Assembly: GCF_918797505.1 (NCBI RefSeq)
Contig: NC_092795.1
Coordinates: 33,901,131-33,965,130, forward strand
Origin: Bemisia tabaci
Lineage: Eukaryota; Arthropoda; Insecta; Hemiptera; Aleyrodidae
Direction: 5' to 3'
Length of the DNA: 64,000 nucleotides
Positions within the stretch are counted from its first letter, which is position 1. Each line of letters starts with the position of its first letter. The notes below the pieces were generated by a model. That model was not told the DNA's origin and searched no databases. It worked only from the letters and a program-made list of their open reading frames with translations. Made by a program: the position numbers and the translations under genes. Shown one piece after another: positions 30,930 through 62,741 of this stretch.

Positions 30930-31633
30930 GTCCAGCGTCAAAAACGCAAATATGTCGTTATCAAATCGAGGTAAATTTTGCAACTTCGGTCGCGCAAATC
31001 GAAAAACGAAGGGGTCTTGGCACATCTAGACCCTATGAGCTTTCATTTAAAACAAATCCGAGGAAAATCGGTCCAGTAGTTTCCGAGATCGAATTAGCAC
31101 AAACTGTCCAGCGGCAAAAACGCTAATATGTCGTTATCAAATCGAGGTAAATTTTGCAACGTCGGTCGCGCAAATCGAAAAACCAAGGGATGTTGGCACG
31201 TCTACAGCCTAAGAGCTTTAATTTAAAACAAATCCGAGGAAAATCGGTCCAGTAGTTTCCGAGATCGAATTAGCACAAACTGTCCAGCGTCAAAAATGCA
31301 AATATGTCGTTATCAAATCAAGGTAAATTTTGCAACGTCGGTCGCGGAAATCGAAAAACCAAAGGATGTTGGCACGTCTACAGCGTAAGAGCTTTCATTT
31401 AAAACAAATCCGAGGAAAATCGGTCCAGTAGTTTCCGAGATCGAATTAGCACAAACTGTCCAGCGTCAAAAATGCAAATATGTCGTTATCAAATCGAGGT
31501 AAATTTTGCAACGTCGGTCGCGCAAATCGAAAAACCAAGGGATGTTGGCACGTCTACAGCCTAAGAGCTTTCATTTAAAACAAATCCGAGGAAAATCGGT
31601 CCAGTAGTTTCCGAGATCGAATTAGCACAAACT
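30930..31633 (+). repeat. tandem array, 4 units of exactly 176 bp
   Basis: Unit starts at 30,930, 31,106, 31,282 and 31,458 and the array ends at 31,633. Each unit contains ATATGTCGTTATCAAATC, AAATCCGAGGAAAATCGG and AGTAGTTTCCGAGATCG. The units are nearly identical, so the array is young or homogenised. Internal short frames repeat with the array and are not genes. Confidence 0.95.
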
Positions 31634-31820
31634 GTTGGAGGCCAAAAAAGGCCTTAGGATATTAAATATATAGATTTATTAAGTTGACAGTAGATGTAGA
31701 TAAAAGACAACATTAATTTGTCAAATTAAATTAGAATGATGGGCGATTTGTACATAGTTTATTTCATATTTTATTGATTAATTTTATTATCATTTACTGC
31801 TGAATCCCTTTTTATAGAAT

Positions 31821-34632: not shown

Positions 34633-35569
34633 GATCACCCCATAGAGTACAATAGAGTCGCAAAGTACTGGAGCGGCGATGAAGCCAATCCATGAACAGG
34701 CGTTTCCGAGCCGCGTGTGCTCCGAAAATAGTGAACCATTTGCGAACCCAACGGCATTTTGTAACACGGCGGCTTATGGAGAAATCAAGAACTGCTTGTG
34801 TTTTTTAGGTATTTCATAATTCAATCAGCATTAATTTTTGCAAATTTTGCTATTTAAAGGTAGTCAAAGCCATAATGAATCCATTGATGTATATTACTCC
34901 TGGATAATATTCATATTGGGATTTAATTTCTGACTTATACCAAGTGTGAACCAACCGGCATTTCTTATCACGGCGGCTTACGGGAAAAGCAACGACTGTC
35001 CGTGTTTTTTCGACATTTTTTAATTTCATCGATATTAATTTGTGCAAATTTTGCTATAATTAGATAGTCAAAGTCATAATGAATCCATTGATGTATATTA
35101 CTCCTGGATAAAATTCATATAGGAATTTAATTTCTGACTTATACCAAGTGTGAACCAACCGGCATTTTTTTACACGGTGGCTTATGGAGAAATCAGCGAC
35201 TGCTTGTGTTTTTTTCGACTTTTTTTAATTCCATCGGTATTAATTTGTGCAAATTTTGCTTGAAATAGATATTCAAAGCCATAATGAATCCATTAATGTA
35301 TGTTACTCCGAGATAATATTCATATATGGACTCAATTTCAGACTTATTACCGGCCTACTTATTTTAGCTGGTTCAGTGTGTGTCTAGCCGACGAACGGAG
35401 CCGAGTCGGGACTGTCGGGAGTGGGGAGCGCTGAGCGCGAGTCTCTGCGTATGCGTCATCGCTAGTCGCCGCACACTAGTCTCCGGAGAACTGGACAAAA
35501 CAGCCTCGAAAAGTGACTTCATCGGCGATCCAGTACTTTGCGACTCTATTGTACTCTATGGATCACCCC
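34633..35569. repeat. ~50-bp inverted pair flanking tandem repeats
   Basis: 34,633-34,681 and 35,521-35,569 are inverted copies carrying AGTACTTTGCGACTCTATTG. Between them lies the 205-bp tandem array. The identical peptide PVLCDSIVLYG seen in opposite-strand frames on either side is explained by this nucleotide repeat. Confidence 0.8.
34735..35355 (+). repeat. tandem array, about 3 units of ~205 bp
   Basis: The word CAAATTTTGC recurs at 34,841, 35,045 and 35,250. Each unit also has CATAATGAATCCATT, AATTTCTGACTTA and a CACGG(C/T)GGCTTA word. The units are diverged by a few percent to ~15 percent by eye. Confidence 0.88.
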
Positions 35570-38545: not shown

Positions 38546-39517
38546 GGGTGTCCCAAAAGTACCGGGACTGGTTCTGTAACTTCAAAAGTAAGATAGATAC
38601 AGACATGATTTTGGTCTCATTTTAAAGATCAACTCAATACCTATCGATTAAAACCAAGATCAGCTCAATCGGATAAAAATTGACCGAGTTATGACAATTT
38701 GAAATTAGTGAGGAAAGTTTACCCCTACGGTTTTTAGGAAGATTTTTCGCTTACCAGGATTCAAAAAGTTAATATTCGTATCCACTTTCCTCCGAATCTT
38801 CCATAACTTCCTTTTGCTTTTCAAAGTACCGTCCATCAAACCGGTTGCACTTTTTCATGCGCTCTTGCCACTTATCCAACATTGTTTTCCTGAATTCTTC
38901 CTCTGGGATGGCGTTGAAAAAGTTTTGAATTGCATTCTGGATTTCGGTCTTCGATTCGAATCTTCGTCCACGAAGCTCCTTTTTAAGTGTAGGAAACATC
39001 CAAAAATCACATGGAGCCAAGTCAGGGCTGTAAGGGGGATGAGGGATTGTTTCAACTCCATTTTTACTCATAAATTCACGTGTTAAGCTCGATGTGTGAG
39101 GCCGCGCTTGTCTTGATGGAGTATCCACGAAGCTTTCAAGTCCGACCGTTTCCGGGAAATGTGCATTCTCAACTCCTTTAGCACTTTGCAATAATACGTA
39201 CTGTCAACTGTTGTGTTTGGTGGTACAAAATGTTGATAAATGACACCTCGAAAATGAAAAAAACACAATAAGCATCACTTTATAGGCCGACTTTTCGATT
39301 TACGGCGATGAAGAATCTTCCTTAAAAACCGTAGGCGTAAACTTTCCTCGCTGATTTCAAAGTGCCATAACTTGGTCAATTTTTATCCGATTGAGCTGAT
39401 CTTGGTTTTAATCGATAGGTATTGAGTTGATCTTTAAAATGAAATCAAGATCATGTCTGTATCCATCTTACTTTTGAAGTTACAGAACAAGTCCCGGTGC
39501 TTTTGGGACACCTTTTG
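38546..39517. mobile_element. decayed mariner-type element with ~215-bp TIRs
   Basis: Ends read GGGTGTCCCAAAAGTACCGG and CCGGTGCTTTTGGGACACC, with TA on each outer side (38,544-38,545; 39,518-39,519), as expected for Tc1/mariner. The arms match over roughly 215 bp, far longer than the ~30 bp usual for mariners. The 972-bp body keeps only the C-terminal part of a transposase. Confidence 0.9.
38769..39268 (-). pseudogene. truncated, frameshifted mariner transposase
   Basis: DD34D-type mariner transposase remnant that would cut and paste the element. From 39,268 the frame encodes IYQHFVPPNTTVDSTYYCKV and then WILHQD, which holds the second catalytic Asp. A frameshift near 39,085-39,190 moves the reading to the frame that starts at 39,191. 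That frame carries RPHTS and YSPDLAPCDFW, with the third catalytic Asp in the position typical of mariner, followed by a conserved tail to 38,769. The N-terminal helix-turn-helix and the first catalytic Asp are absent. With both a deletion and a frameshift it cannot be active. Confidence 0.88.
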
Positions 39518-56510: not shown

Positions 56511-56816
56511 ATGTCTTTGTCGTTCACGTACCTAGAGGACAGCGTGATCGCGGAGGGTGCCTCGGGGAACGTGATCCTCCGGGGTCATTTGGGCGGGCGA
56601 GACATCGCCGTTAAGAGGATGTCCGTCGACCGCGTGACCCTGGCCGAGAGGGAGATCCGCCTCCTCGAGGTTCACGATGCCCATCCAAACATCCTCCGAT
56701 ACTTCGGCCATCGTCGGAACGTTCTCTTCGTCTACCTGGCACTGGAACTCGCCACCGGGAACCTTAGTGAGTACTGCGACTCGCCGCAGTATATGAACGT
56801 CCTCGCCCCCAGAGAG
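56511..56816 (+). CDS. pseudokinase-KEN ribonuclease, exon 1 (kinase N-lobe)
   Basis: First coding exon of a compact IRE1/RNase L-type protein: a kinase-like domain that in this family binds nucleotide and drives dimerisation of a C-terminal RNase. Exons 56,511-56,816, 59,618-60,142 and 61,509-61,859 join in phase 0 to give 393 residues. This exon codes residues 1-102. The Gly loop is degenerate, A14-x-G16-x-x-G19. The VAVK-type Lys is K35 (DIAVKR) and the helix-C Glu is E48 (AEREIRLL). The match to IRE1 includes HPNILRYFGH and LALELATGNLSEY. I chose ATG 56,511 because an in-frame TGA lies at 56,505-56,507 and the domain begins within about eight residues. An out-of-frame ATG at 56,504 overlaps. 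No signal peptide, membrane segment or ankyrin repeat precedes it. The donor is GAG|GTAATA. An upstream exon cannot be wholly excluded. Confidence 0.9.
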
Positions 56817-57116
56817 GTAATAACAAATATCCAACTGCCTTGTAGACGAGGTTAGAGTACCTATATAGGAAGAGTATAGTAGAGTAATAAAGCGATTTTG
56901 AAAGTTGGGTGCAGAAAGGGCATTTCTCGGTTCCGATGTTTTAGAATCCCCATTGATAATTTATGTTTTGAAGCGGAAACTTTTGGGCGAATTTTTGAAA
57001 TTTTACGTTCTCAGCATTGTAAAATCATGAAGAATATTCAGTAGAAGTAACAAAAAATTACATTTGCCTTAATCTTAATGGATGAAACGTTGGCGGAGAT
57101 TTTGTGATACCAAAAC

Positions 57117-57447
57117 TAGAGGGAGAGTATGGACAACGCGAAATATGTAGCTTGTAGGGCCCATAAGGGTAGGTAACCTTTGAAAACGAAAAATGTCACT
57201 GTCAATCTTTAGACTTCAATATCAAACGAAAATGGACAAGAAAATTCATGAGTAAGCATTCTTCCGCAAAAATGAGTAAGTTTGTGCCAAAACCAAGTTA
57301 AATACGTGCTTCACCAACGAAATTTCCTTAAAATTGTAATAATAAATCACTCTGGATAATTTGAATTCATAGATTGCCTACCCTTTTGGGCCCTAAGAGC
57401 TGCATCACCTAACCTCAAAATTTCCGACATGTCCATACTTTCCCTAT
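57117..57447. mobile_element. MITE with ~70-bp inverted ends
   Basis: Left GGGAGAGTATGGACAACGCG and AGGGCCCATAAGGGTAGG; right CCTACCCTTTTGGGCCCT and CATGTCCATACTTTCCC. The core is AT-rich and non-coding. Confidence 0.8.
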
Positions 57448-57636
57448 GTAGGTAGTCTAGATGAGGTATATGAATTATAGCACTGTTGGTTGCATGCTTC
57501 TTCAAAATGTCGTGAGGACAACGAAGAACGACGGAAAGTCTAGAACTCTACTCCCAAACGAGATGTAAATGTTTACAATTAACAATAGTCAAACGGGAAA
57601 AATAAGTGCGAGTCATTTCTATGATCTAACTTCCAT

Positions 57637-57988
57637 TTGGACCGCGTTAAACAGAAAGGATCCAAGCCACATAGGCTATTGCCAAATTCAAGGGGGCGTT
57701 TTAATTTTTTACATGAAAACGGTCTTTCGGATTTTTGTGGAAATCTCAGTTAATTAACACCTTGGCTAATCTCTTCTTACATTAATCATGTTTCAAATGG
57801 TGTTACTAATCATAATGGACGATTTCATAAACACTCAGTTAATTGTCTCCATAGTACGAGGCAAATTCCTTAAAATTTTCAGAGGAATTCACACAAACGT
57901 TCTCTCGTATAAAATTAAATTGCCCAGTTAAATTTGGCAATAGCTGATGCGGCTTGATTCTTTTCTGTTAAACGCGGTCCATTTGATC
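57637..57988. mobile_element. foldback MITE (GGACCGCGTTAAACAG ends)
   Basis: Left arm ATTTGGACCGCGTTAAACAG, then GGCTATTGCCAAATT. The right arm is the inverse, AATTTGGCAATAGC then CTGTTAAACGCGGTCCATT. Spaced by ~230 bp of AT-rich DNA. Confidence 0.85.
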
Positions 57989-58301
57989 TACATTAAAAAT
58001 GCTTGTATAACTTTCGTTCAGTAGTTAATTTCCAAACTTCCTGTCATGTAAATTGTTTTCCACGCAAAATTTGAAGAGGACACATGTGCCTTTTTTCTGA
58101 CTCAGACATTGGCTAAGGGCCCATTCTATAAAAAAAGAAATATTTATTACGTTAATTGGTGAAATTATACTTAGCTCTAAAAAAAAGGCAATCTAGGAAA
58201 ATCAATATCTAGGAGTGTCTTTGCGGGAACATGCTGCAATCGGCCATCAGAAGAACACATTACAAGTTTACAGTATAGGTAGTTTTCGTTTAATTGCTCG
58301 T

Positions 58302-58611
58302 ATGCGTTTCACGGCGGCCAGCGCAGCGACTGCCCTGTGTTTAGCGCAATGCGCGAAGTATTCTTACAGTCTTGTAGGCGCTAATATGCTTCCGCTCCGA
58401 CCAGCGATCGCTCTGTGTTTGGCGCAATGCGTGAAGTATTCCTGCACTCTTGTAGGCGCTAATAAGCGTTTTGCACCGGCAGTGACACTATGTTTGGCGA
58501 GATTAGAAACGATGATACAGCGTTAGATTTTAAAGAAACTGTAGAAACAGAGGAGAGATAATAATTTTGAAGGATGGCTGGGTAAAATAATGAAACGACT
58601 CATGCAGAGTG
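58302..58611. repeat. dispersed repeat with ~78-bp units (copy 2)
   Basis: Close copy of 174-471, including the shared tail GAAGGATGGCTGGGTAAAAT. Copy 1 continues differently after CATGCAGAGT, marking the right edge of the shared unit. Confidence 0.85.
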
Positions 58612-59617
58612 TAGGCAAAAATATTCGAATAAAGAGTCCATCGAAAATTAAATGAAAACAAGTAGCCGAAGCTAATACAGGTAAATGTTCGCTCGTGTAA
58701 AAGAGACTTAAGTTACATCGAATGAAAATTTTGACGTATTGAGTTAGCGTTGTTTTTTTAAGTAAGGAATTGCACTGAAGAGTTTTGTTTCTAAGGTTTA
58801 AGCGAAAAACCGGTCGCCGGCAGCGTATATTGGTCCCCAGCCTGCCTGTTTTCAAGACGGCGGCCTTTAGCGGACAGCCGATTCTGGGAAACTTTTGTTT
58901 ATCTTGTTCTGGTGGCTTGTTTCAACATTTTCCCGCGAAGAAATATTTTGTATATCGATTTTCCCAAAAAACGCAAGATTGACTGGGCCGTTACACCTAT
59001 CTTTGAAGAGTGACAAAGCGTAAATTATGTATATCGTGTATGTGAGGAACCATTTAAGTATCACGTAAGGAATTTTGGCCAACATTTCTATCTTTTGTTA
59101 CGAATCTGATGATTGGCCCGATCTTTCCCTCCCCATTTTCCAGGAAACAGTGGAGAAAGCCTGAACAATAGTTAAAAAAAACATTAATGTACATTAAAAA
59201 CATTATGTTTTTTTAATCAATAGGTGTGCGTAGATCACGCTTGATTTTCTCCTTCCTTCTCGTAAGACCCCACAAGAAAAGCTCCTCTTTGGGTGGCTTA
59301 CGTAGCACCAAAACGGCTCCCTAAAAATTTTTAAAAAATCCTCCTGTGTCATAGTTAAAGTTCTTAAAAGGTAGCGAAACAGAAGGAGAGGAGAGAGGAA
59401 AGAGAAAAATGATTCCTTTCATCTTCCTCTTTCTTCCTTTTTACTCCTCTTCTTCTTTCTCTTCTTCATCAACTGTTTCTCCTTTTTCTTCCTTCTCTTT
59501 CTCGTCTTCTTAAAAGACCCGAATCGACCTGACTAAGAATGAATAGCCATTCGCAGTGAAATCGGTTTGGTAAATCTCTCGTAAATCATAAGTATCATTA
59601 ATCAAAATTATCATCAG

Positions 59618-60142
59618 GTATGCGCGCAGATCACTCGGGGTCTGAAGCACCTCCACGATCTGAACATCGTACATCGGAACTTAAAACCCTCGAACATACT
59701 TTTCCTGCTCATCCGGGAGGACGAAATGCTGATGAAAATAGCGGACTACGCCATTTCCAAGACGTTGGAGGATCGCGAATCGTTCACGAGCTCCTGCACG
59801 GTGGGGTCCATCTCGTGGGCGGCGCCCGAAATGCGCGGTCGCCCAGACCGCAAAACCCTCAAAACGGATATATACTCCTTGGGGCTCGTATTTTTCACCG
59901 TCCTTACCTTCGGGCGCCCCAGGGACAGGGGCGCAGTGACCAGGGACATGATCCTGGCGAATCTAAGCGACGTCCTCAACGGGGCTCAGAGGCTTTTGTT
60001 GAGGGAAATGCTGGACCTGATGCCCGAAAACCGGCCAACCTGCGCTGAGATCCTAGTCCAGCCCGCCTTCTGGCCCCCTGAAAAGGTTCTGTCTTTCCTC
60101 CAGGAGGTCTTCAATCTCGCGCCGCCTGATTTTAATTTCGAG
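59618..60142 (+). CDS. pseudokinase-KEN ribonuclease, exon 2 (kinase C-lobe)
   Basis: Codes residues 103-277. The catalytic-loop HRD is HRN (H121-R122-N123, then LKPSN with N128), so the usual proton-accepting Asp is Asn. DFG is DYA (D145-Y146-A147), which keeps the Mg-binding Asp. The APE motif is A171-P172-E173 in WAAPEM, followed by DIYSLGLVFF and RPTCAEILVQPAFW, which marks the end of the kinase fold in IRE1 and RNase L. Residues after W carry the linker to the KEN domain (EKVLSFLQEVFNL). Loss of the HRD Asp suggests no phosphotransfer but possible ATP binding, as in RNase L. The donor is GAG|GTAATT at 60,143; if it were not used, the frame would run 18 more codons to TAA at 60,197-60,199. 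The exon is much richer in G and C than the introns around it. Confidence 0.92.
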
Positions 60143-60198
60143 GTAATTCGTAGCATCGGTGGGATCGTCCTGCATTCGTCCGATAGTAAATCAGTCTA

Positions 60199-60360
60199 AA
60201 GGCCTAGGTACACTGGACGATTAGTCGCCGCGAGTGAAAGACCGAAGCCAATGGAGAGTCTTAATTTCGATCCATTGTCGTCGATGTATCGAAATCAAGG
60301 CTCTCCATTGGCTTCCGTCTTTCACTTGCGGCGATTAATTGCCGTGTGTATCTAGGCCTT
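60199..60360. mobile_element. foldback MITE just inside intron 2
   Basis: Ends AAGGCCTAGGTACAC and GTGTGTATCTAGGCCTT are inverted, with matching inner arms AAGCCAATGGAGAG and CTCTCCATTGGCTT. It begins at the last base of the TAA that closes the unspliced exon-2 frame. Confidence 0.87.
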
Positions 60361-60416
60361 GACGTCAGCCTGATCGGGTTGACTTTTTTTCGTGAAGCAG
60401 TTTATCGTAAATAAGC

Positions 60417-60692
60417 AGGGCTGATTATTTAAATTGATTGACAAAGCGATAGACATAAAAGACACATGGAAAATGAGGCGATCCTCTAAATGGAAGCGGG
60501 TGGTTTCAATTGGACAAAGGAGGTAAGTAATAGACTAACTACTGGGAACCGACAAGATACCCTGCATTTAGTCCATCATTTTCCCCCTTGGTCTATCAGA
60601 ACCATCCGTTTTAACCAATAAGATCGTTCTTTACTCACTGTGTCTTCTTTGAACATAGCTATTTCCATAATTTTCAATAATCAGCCCGCTGA
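60417..60692. mobile_element. MITE family 3
   Basis: Left end GCAGGGCTGATTATTTAAAT then TTGACAAAGCGATAGAC; right end TTTTCAATAATCAGCCCGC. The inner AAGCGGGTGGTTTCAATTGG and AACCATCCGTTTTAACC match the other copies. Confidence 0.82.
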
Positions 60693-61508
60693 CCTGACCT
60701 CTATTGAGCGCTCTCACATCGTACTAACCAAGTCTGATACCACGATAACGTCAGTCTAACGTCAGACTCGTTCAAGCTGATGTCAAAATTATTCACCTTA
60801 ACGTCATCTCAGCAATAGTAAAACATCATCATGATGGCCAATTGATCATCTGCATGCTGTTGAGAAAACAATATTAAGAAATAAATAAAGACTTTTTTTT
60901 GGAATCATGTCATCTAATCAAATGCCGATTTCTAAATTCAATATATCAACAAGGATACCGTTCGCCGAAAAGCACGGTGTATGATGCCATTCATCACGGT
61001 GTTAAATGCCAAATCTCGTCAATCGTTGATTAATTAGAAGCGATAGACACATTTACGCTGGTTATACTCCCTGAAGAAAACATTAAATAGTACTGGGAAT
61101 GAGGGGAACTGTACCGCCATGTTTTCATTCGTTATAAGGTGTCCGTCTGTTTGACAAAAAATAGCATACTCAAACAGAGAAGATTAATCAAAAGTAATCA
61201 ATTATACAGCAAATCCTCCAAACTTGGTGATCCGCGGTTCCCTTAGAGTCCCCAGTATTCATTACCGAGAGGTTCAGATGTCCTCAGCTCAAATGCCATC
61301 AAAGCCTTTTTGGCAACGTTATCTCCAAATTTTGATGCAATGGTGACCGTTCTGAAGCTTCATTGGAGCAACAAATACTTCGGTATTGAGTGCTAAAGCC
61401 TTCCGGGTGGGGGGGGGGGGGGGGGGCATAACTTACGAAGCTGATACGCTGAGAGATTTATGTACGTCCACTAAGGATCTGACCCGCTTGATTTGATTTG
61501 ATTTGGAG

Positions 61509-61859
61509 GTGTACAACGAGCAGGTATGGCAGGGCGACTGGAAGGATCTACTGTGCCCGACATTGGTGAATCGAATGTCAAGTCGGACACCGAAACCGTA
61601 CGACGGGTGTTCGATGAGGCACCTTTTGCGGTTTGTGCGGAATTTGGTGACGCACCGGGCGGGCATCAGAGATCTCATTCCCCACGCTTGCAGCTCCAAC
61701 GAACGACTCGTACAATACATCGACGAAAACATCCCTAACCTAATCTACTACGCCTGGCTCACCGCCAAAGGTACACTCTCGCTGGAGAACCTCGCCCACT
61801 TCTACGAGTACCCTTCCACGCCCGGTCCCTTCGAGTGCCCTCCACCGCGTCCTTCTTGA
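61509..61859 (+). CDS. pseudokinase-KEN ribonuclease, exon 3 (KEN RNase domain)
   Basis: Codes residues 278-393 and the stop TGA at 61,857-61,859. This is the kinase-extension nuclease (KEN) domain, which in IRE1 and RNase L cuts RNA after dimerisation. By alignment to IRE1, the catalytic Tyr is Y308 (PKPYDGCSMR), and Arg, Asn and His are R321, N322 and H326 (RFVRNLVTH). The spacing Y+13=R, +14=N, +18=H is exactly that of human IRE1 (Y892, R905, N906, H910). The C-terminal helices include NIPNLIYYAWLTAKG, matching the FPHLLAHTYR region of IRE1. A short Pro-rich tail ends the protein. An AATAAA at 62,041-62,046 could serve as poly(A) signal, although it sits in a MITE. The nuclease therefore looks intact although the kinase does not. 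Confidence 0.92.
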   Translation: MYNEQVWQGDWKDLLCPTLVNRMSSRTPKPYDGCSMRHLLRFVRNLVTHRAGIRDLIPHACSSNERLVQYIDENIPNLIYYAWLTAKGTLSLENLAHFYEYPSTPGPFECPPPRPS

Positions 61860-62152: not shown

Positions 62153-62169
62153 GTCTGCTAGTCTCATAA

Positions 62170-62324
62170 GCGGATCCAGCGAATTGGCAACATTGTCTTT
62201 CCTCCATTTAAACCTATTGGAATGTATCGATTCTTGAAGGGGCTAGATGCACGTACAAGAATCGATTATTTAACATAAGTTTAAATGGAGGAAATCAGAT
62301 GTTGCCAAATTTCTGGATTCGCCT
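62170..62324. mobile_element. foldback MITE (GGATCCAGCGAATTGGC ends)
   Basis: Left GCGGATCCAGCGAATTGGC and CCTCCATTTAAACC; right GGTTTAAAT-like TAAGTTTAAATGGAGG and TCTGGATTCGCC. The core has TCGATTCTTG and CAAGAATCGA. Confidence 0.75.
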
Positions 62325-62410
62325 CTGGCTAACCTGGTCATTAGAACGACAGCCCTGACTCAAGTCAGTAGATGCCCGATGGTGGTTCAAAATGTCCTTG
62401 GCTCTGATGA

Positions 62411-62741
62411 GTGGGTCTACTTAAGTAGATTCCTCTCGGCCTTCATCCCTGAAAATTCGATAGCGTAGAACATAAAATAATTGCTAATCTAATGCTAAAT
62501 AAAGGTTGTAGAATCTAAAAAAAGGTGGTTCTGCTTAAGTAAATTTGTCTCGGCCTTCGTCCCTGAAAATTTGATAGCATAGAACATAAAATAATTGCTA
62601 ATCTAACGCTAAATAAAGGTTGTAGAATCTAAAAAAAAGGTGGGTTTGCTTAAGTAGATTTCTCATGGCCTTCATCCCTTAAAAGATAGCGTAGAACATA
62701 AAATAATTGCTAAGCTAAATAAAGGTTGTAGAATCAAGACG
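62411..62741 (+). repeat. tandem array, 3 units of ~115 bp (SINE-tail related)
   Basis: Units start at 62,411, 62,525 and 62,640. Each has TTAAGTAGATT, CTCGGCCTTCATCCCTG, AACATAAAATAATTGC and AAATAAAGGTTGTAGAATC. The CTT(A/C)ATCCCTGAAAATT core is shared with the SINE-like element at 39,897-40,080. Each unit holds an AATAAA. Confidence 0.88.

Follow-up and report, generated by a model that had tools for sequence, protein, structure and literature searches.

What does a gene encoding only a kinase-like domain and a KEN ribonuclease domain do in an insect genome that also carries a normal IRE1? IRE1 ties RNA cutting to kinase chemistry; in RNase L the kinase step is dispensable when another input drives dimerisation. 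The gene in question lies at positions 56511..61859, forward strand, of a 64,000-nucleotide stretch of the Bemisia tabaci (whitefly) genome (C3:33901131-33965130; hereafter the window). I put at roughly 0.55 the probability that it belongs to a tandem pair of compact, kinase-dead IRE1-family genes whose products are soluble, dimerisation-activated KEN ribonucleases causing RNA decay, additional to canonical IRE1. Its product of 393 residues comes from three exons (306 + 525 + 351 nt, stop codon counted):

56511..56816, plus strand: exon 1 (306 nt), start ATG, codons 1-102, kinase N-lobe
56817..59617, plus strand: intron 1 (2801 bp), phase 0, GT...AG, containing a multi-copy repeat at about 57117-57460
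59618..60142, plus strand: exon 2 (525 nt), codons 103-277, remainder of the kinase-like domain
60143..61508, plus strand: intron 2, phase 0, GT...AG; not present in the tandem paralogue; multi-copy repeat around 60418-60692
61509..61859, plus strand: exon 3 (351 nt including stop), codons 278-393 and stop, KEN ribonuclease domain

The first-pass annotation, made from the letters of the sequence, had proposed three exons joined in phase 0, 393 residues and an arthropod host, and all of this stands: exon ends, phases and length are the same, both introns are bounded by GT...AG, and the host is a whitefly. A deposited B. tabaci protein model has exactly 393 residues and is 97% identical to the window gene product over its full length, so it arrives at the exon joins without relying on that annotation. 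Guanine-plus-cytosine (GC) content is 56-60% in the exons versus 38-42% in the two introns, and 74% at third codon positions.

Could the true protein be longer, with an upstream exon adding a sensor or localising domain? The compact proteins are deposited as IRE1-like and IRE2-like, the names including 'isoform X1' and, in the neighbour's case, 'isoform X2', which may point to further transcripts, and an AG ending two bases 5' of the ATG could act as a splice acceptor. However, the deposited 393-residue model begins at the same Met, an in-frame stop stands two codons 5' of the ATG (TGA GTA ATG), and the luminal-to-membrane stretch of whitefly IRE1, used as a query, finds nothing better than E 1.7 within the window, its one weak match (E 0.031) lying downstream on the opposite strand. 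A longer protein is very unlikely.

A Pfam scan of the product finds Pkinase (7.4e-33) and Ribonuc_2-5A/KEN (9.1e-10; 39.2 bits versus a cut-off of 23.3; residues 277-376), and human IRE1 aligns across residues 8-388 (3.2e-49). The product starts directly at the kinase, with no luminal sensor in its 393 residues and, by Pfam, no ankyrin repeats; no transmembrane-like stretch is found, the highest 19-residue Kyte-Doolittle mean being 1.27 versus 2.35 in canonical whitefly IRE1. A search with the PQQ_2 family matched nothing, canonical whitefly IRE1 included, and hence says nothing on the absence of a sensor. The earlier description of a pseudokinase plus KEN with neither a luminal sensor nor a membrane helix nor ankyrin repeats visible is thus upheld by Pfam, hydropathy and pattern scans, and the protein is probably soluble and cytosolic. 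A structure predicted on the deposited 97% identical protein, using a 38-row alignment composed largely of IRE1 sequences, matches IRE1 first and RNase L second, with 28-30% identity to IRE1 chains versus 18-22% to RNase L chains in the structural alignments. The residues on which the argument turns are these:

59672..59680, plus strand: HRN (His121-Arg122-Asn123) replacing HRD; catalytic Asp lost
59744..59752, plus strand: DYA (Asp145-Tyr146-Ala147) replacing DFG; metal-binding Asp kept
Exon 1: beta-3 Lys35 and alpha-C Glu48 of the N-lobe; dimer residues Arg30, Asp56 and Arg63, also Tyr64
61599..61601, plus strand: Tyr308, aligned to human IRE1 Tyr892 (yeast Y1043)
61638..61655, plus strand: Arg321-Asn322-x3-His326, the Rx4-6H ribonuclease motif (yeast R1056, N1057, H1061)

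Both compact whitefly proteins carry HRN and DYA, and the active kinase motifs HRD and DFG are absent from both. The protein searches that supplied the comparison kept the best 120 matches each, from candidates of 0.55-1.75 times the query length that share short words with it; one search scored just the 7996 candidates sharing most words. Of 118 other rows among the matches listed, 116 have the catalytic Asp and 114 the DFG Phe, the remaining two and four, respectively, being gapped there; one row (P0210) reads NFK. A further 14 rows (12 new KEN-labelled rows from another protein search, plus P0244 and P0248) have Asp in 13 and a gap in one at the catalytic position, and at the DFG Phe position two have Met, the truncated P0248 being unaligned there. 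The nucleotide-holding residues (beta-3 Lys, alpha-C Glu, catalytic-loop Asn, DFG Asp) are kept, and in the Gly-rich loop Ala or Ser takes the place of the first Gly. The kinase-like domain thus probably binds nucleotide and appears to have lost phosphate transfer. By sequence comparison, all three residues matching the back-to-back salt-bridge residues of the human IRE1 dimer (Arg594, Asp620 and Arg627; PMC4536996, as excerpted) are kept.

The KEN domain presents a different picture. The catalytic roles of its Tyr, Arg, Asn and His have been described for yeast Ire1 (Y1043, R1056, N1057 and H1061; excerpt of PMC3149027), and the Rx4-6H motif is given as a general rule of the KEN-containing superfamily in the excerpted text of PMC3710099. 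All four residues are retained in both compact copies, which suggests that the domain is probably an active metal-independent endoribonuclease.

A frame-by-frame KEN family search over the 610-Mb assembly found three places: an IRE1 on C2 (1.4e-35), the window gene, and a third locus some 5 kb further downstream, just past the window end. These three loci settle the paralogue count that the first-pass annotation had raised. The third is a second compact gene:

C3:33966405-33968144, same strand, head to tail with the window gene: second compact gene (deposited protein P0002)
C3:33966405-33966700 and 33967313-33968144: its two exons, encoding 375 residues

The gap from the stop codon of the window gene to this neighbour is 3,415 bases. 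The neighbour has the same HRN/DYA and KEN catalytic residues, and, as both copies share them, HRN and DYA probably predate the tandem duplication. The C2 IRE1 is one open frame of 712 residues with Pfam kinase and KEN domains, HRD, DFG and RNKKHH, and a membrane-helix-like stretch that follows what, judged by eye, resembles the end of a luminal domain. Because this canonical IRE1 is present, the compact genes are additions to it and not replacements. Introns interrupt the window gene after codons 102 and 277, both in phase 0; the neighbour's single intron (L014:4702-5313) is in phase 2, about nine codons before the position of the window gene's first intron; canonical whitefly IRE1 has none in its kinase-KEN part. 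The differing positions may reflect independent gains, or else losses in IRE1. All three compact-gene introns sit at AG|GT.

How, then, might such a protein be switched on? With kinase chemistry apparently gone and no anchor or sensor seen, the IRE1 switch of luminal clustering followed by trans-autophosphorylation should not operate. I infer each step that follows from the residue states above. The kinase-like domain would still be folded and would probably bind nucleotide, transferring no phosphate; with self-phosphorylation unavailable, activation would have to come from dimerisation, and dimerisation through the conserved IRE1-type back-to-back interface would activate the RNase. Nucleotide, concentration (induced expression), an adaptor or co-assembly with canonical IRE1 could each drive it, giving a nucleotide-assisted RNase, homodimeric or paired with IRE1, whose outcome would be RNA decay. 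The precedent is RNase L, whose pseudokinase, in the excerpt of PMC4718504, binds ATP without phosphorylating, is thought to be a dimer scaffold, and raises RNase activity on binding ATP.

Several observations weigh against this reading. HRN alone is no proof of kinase inactivity, and as a simple pattern it occurs in 8 of the 306 proteins from the protein searches, namely the Bemisia pair and six kinases whose listing shows no KEN. The preponderance of IRE1 rows in the alignment behind the predicted structure biases that model toward an IRE1-like fold, and the activation loop is modelled poorly (predicted local distance difference test, pLDDT, below 50 at 155-159). The paralogues agree at 43% of aligned residues in KEN (53 of 123) but at 54% in the kinase part (129 of 238), which makes KEN the less conserved domain. 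Finally, the position of human Lys907 is Leu in the window gene product, so cleavage specificity may differ from that of IRE1; the 118 listed rows have Lys there in 74, Thr in one, Gln in one and a gap in 42, and Leu recurs in two of the 14 further rows (P0247 and P0249).

The retained dimer interface and the presence of canonical IRE1 in the same genome also fit a role in which the compact proteins join canonical IRE1 through the shared back-to-back surface and push its RNase output up or down, with only a minor part for RNase activity of their own. In the excerpt of PMC3149027, catalytically dead Ire1 stimulated wild-type Ire1 some tenfold in vitro before inhibiting it at excess, and mixed yeast assemblies with a dead protomer were active, so co-assembly with IRE1 could act in either direction. 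However, a pure scaffold needs none of the four KEN catalytic residues, yet both copies keep all of them despite 43% identity in that domain, and neither compact protein has the membrane helix that keeps IRE1 at the endoplasmic reticulum. I regard modulation of IRE1 as conceivable but doubtful.

Vertebrate RNase L is likewise a pseudokinase joined to KEN, kinase-inactive in its own case (PMC4718504, in part) and by sequence only in the whitefly. The layout of the compact protein, an active-looking KEN included, is that of RNase L minus the ankyrins, and RNase L is its second structural match. This would suit an RNase that acts against viruses and is activated either by a nucleotide second messenger or by being induced on infection. 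However, RNase L has ankyrin repeats and none are seen here; a simple pattern scan of six frames found no ankyrin-like motif in the window and the next 16 kb, so that no RNase L-type site for 2',5'-oligoadenylate (2-5A) is visible. The compact sequence is also nearer IRE1, as the lower structural identity to RNase L chains reflects, and at the Gly of DFG, RNase L has Asp (excerpt of PMC4718504) and the whitefly protein Ala. An OAS1_C search gave no match in the whitefly genome, nor in any control genome. An RNase L analogue in this sense is unlikely. A related proposal, that whiteflies independently evolved an RNase L-like effector (a soluble, kinase-dead, nucleotide-gated and tandem-duplicated KEN nuclease that is induced or activated under virus or endosymbiont stress and needs no 2-5A to degrade RNA), I offer tentatively, as rather a long shot.

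The closest likeness remains IRE1 (ERN1/ERN2), which the compact protein resembles in domain order and fold from end to end and with which it shares KEN catalytic and dimer residues. It differs in that no luminal sensor or membrane helix is found, the catalytic Asp and DFG are altered, and Lys907 is Leu. The apparent absence of a sensor, on which the first-pass annotation laid weight, is less unusual than supposed. Brassicaceae have IRE1C, a sensor-less plant IRE1 that, like the whitefly pair, is an extra paralogue alongside canonical IRE1 (excerpt of PMC6788458); compared with it, the whitefly proteins begin with the kinase itself and carry HRN/DYA. Kinase-KEN proteins without a labelled luminal domain are also deposited, as database models, from the barnacle Amphibalanus (P0207), fish (P0183, P0190, P0172) and the ctenophore Mnemiopsis (P0274), but all five retain the catalytic Asp and DFG (the ctenophore triplet being HND), unlike the whitefly pair. 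The fish forms differ further in carrying death-fold domains: CARD or PYRIN is fused to kinase-KEN in salmonid-type fish proteins (P0172, P0183, P0190 and other rows), which suggests death-fold control of the KEN nuclease there. Four barnacle proteins (P0207, P0214, P0215, P0220) are short and IRE1-like with intact kinase motifs and start MGG or MDG, KEN being labelled in P0207 only; the opening MGGQ in the barnacle may signal myristoylation. In Oikopleura and monocots, KEN has expanded apart from the kinase (PMC3710099, in part); these expansions are lineage-specific like the whitefly pair, but have no kinase domain. Among the titles and abstract beginnings searched, I found no description of the whitefly compact proteins, nor of the barnacle, fish and ctenophore sensor-less proteins, and B. 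tabaci IRE1 appears in the accessible part of PMC13027231 in a tree only. As judged from sequence, the whitefly pair is set apart by the loss of the catalytic Asp with the nuclease site retained, sensor-less IRE1 itself being already known in plants.

Long tree branches might suggest that the gene is a functionless, decaying duplicate. Against this, frames are open both in this genome and in the deposited models, the KEN catalytic residues are kept in both copies, and dN is 0.47 and dS 2.49 between them (Nei-Gojobori method, NG86), a dN/dS of about 0.19 that is merely indicative as dS is saturated. Compared with the deposited models, this genome has 12 changed residues of 393 (window gene) and 6 of 375 (neighbour), no catalytic residue among them; the neighbour's differences at 310, 317 and 324 lie one to five residues from catalytic Tyr305, Arg318 and His323. 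Disabling mutations in other individuals, which the first-pass annotation had named as telling against it, are not seen, the deposited Bemisia models of both genes being full-length. Decay is highly improbable.

The compact pair forms one clade at full support, whereas its placement on the IRE1 tree, among long branches, is weakly resolved. In a 30-row tree it attaches weakly (80/58) to barnacle proteins, where long branches meet. In a 20-row tree, grouping it with whitefly IRE1 alone is marginally rejected (approximately unbiased test, p-AU 0.038), while a clade of the pair, whitefly IRE1 and the four metagenome-derived rows that group with that IRE1 is not rejected (p-AU 0.060). Neither tree includes an RNase L row. 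With branches this long, the pair may be a fast-evolving IRE1 duplicate or stem from an older split. Protein searches gave no further close relatives among the matches listed, which does not imply absence elsewhere; in one of these searches the next listed match after the two Bemisia proteins scores 2.2e-19 and has no KEN label.

Third-position GC is 0.74 and 0.78 in the compact genes versus 0.35 in canonical IRE1. It is high yet within the genome's range, and I therefore rejected horizontal transfer as judged by base composition: 30 kinase matches of the same genome (a baseline including canonical IRE1, some near-identical copies and six matches with one internal stop) span 0.23-0.94, 2 of 30 lying above 0.74. 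Two kinase matches, L034 and L035, have values of 0.94 and 0.89. Viral carriage was likewise rejected; 47 stretches in viral contigs match a pattern, and none encodes a relative.

The introns of the window gene are not special elements, as both contain common multi-copy repeats: 57117-57460 and 60418-60692 each occur at more than 30 other places among 40 scored, about 90% and 80% alike, respectively. Two long imperfect palindromes, at 60199-60360 in intron 2 and 62165-62327 in the 3' flank (arms of 77 and 79 nt, 86% and 75% complementary), are perhaps short inverted-repeat elements. The remaining features are:

30930-31635, 34744-35347 and 62411-62718: tandem arrays with periods of 176, 204 and 114 bases
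38769-39203, minus strand: open frame of 144 residues with a weak DDE_3 transposase match (1.7e-4, below the Pfam cut-off), which looks like a mariner remnant

A natural kinase-dead, sensor-less insect pair beside a normal IRE1 would offer a second test, outside vertebrates, of the idea that the kinase step is dispensable. It makes answerable whether a bare pseudokinase-KEN module can be a regulated nuclease, and what switches it. Insects may thus possess an enzyme of RNA decay whose layout somewhat resembles that of vertebrate RNase L. The Bemisia tabaci group is a major vector of plant viruses, and an antiviral role, if true, would gain practical weight from that status.

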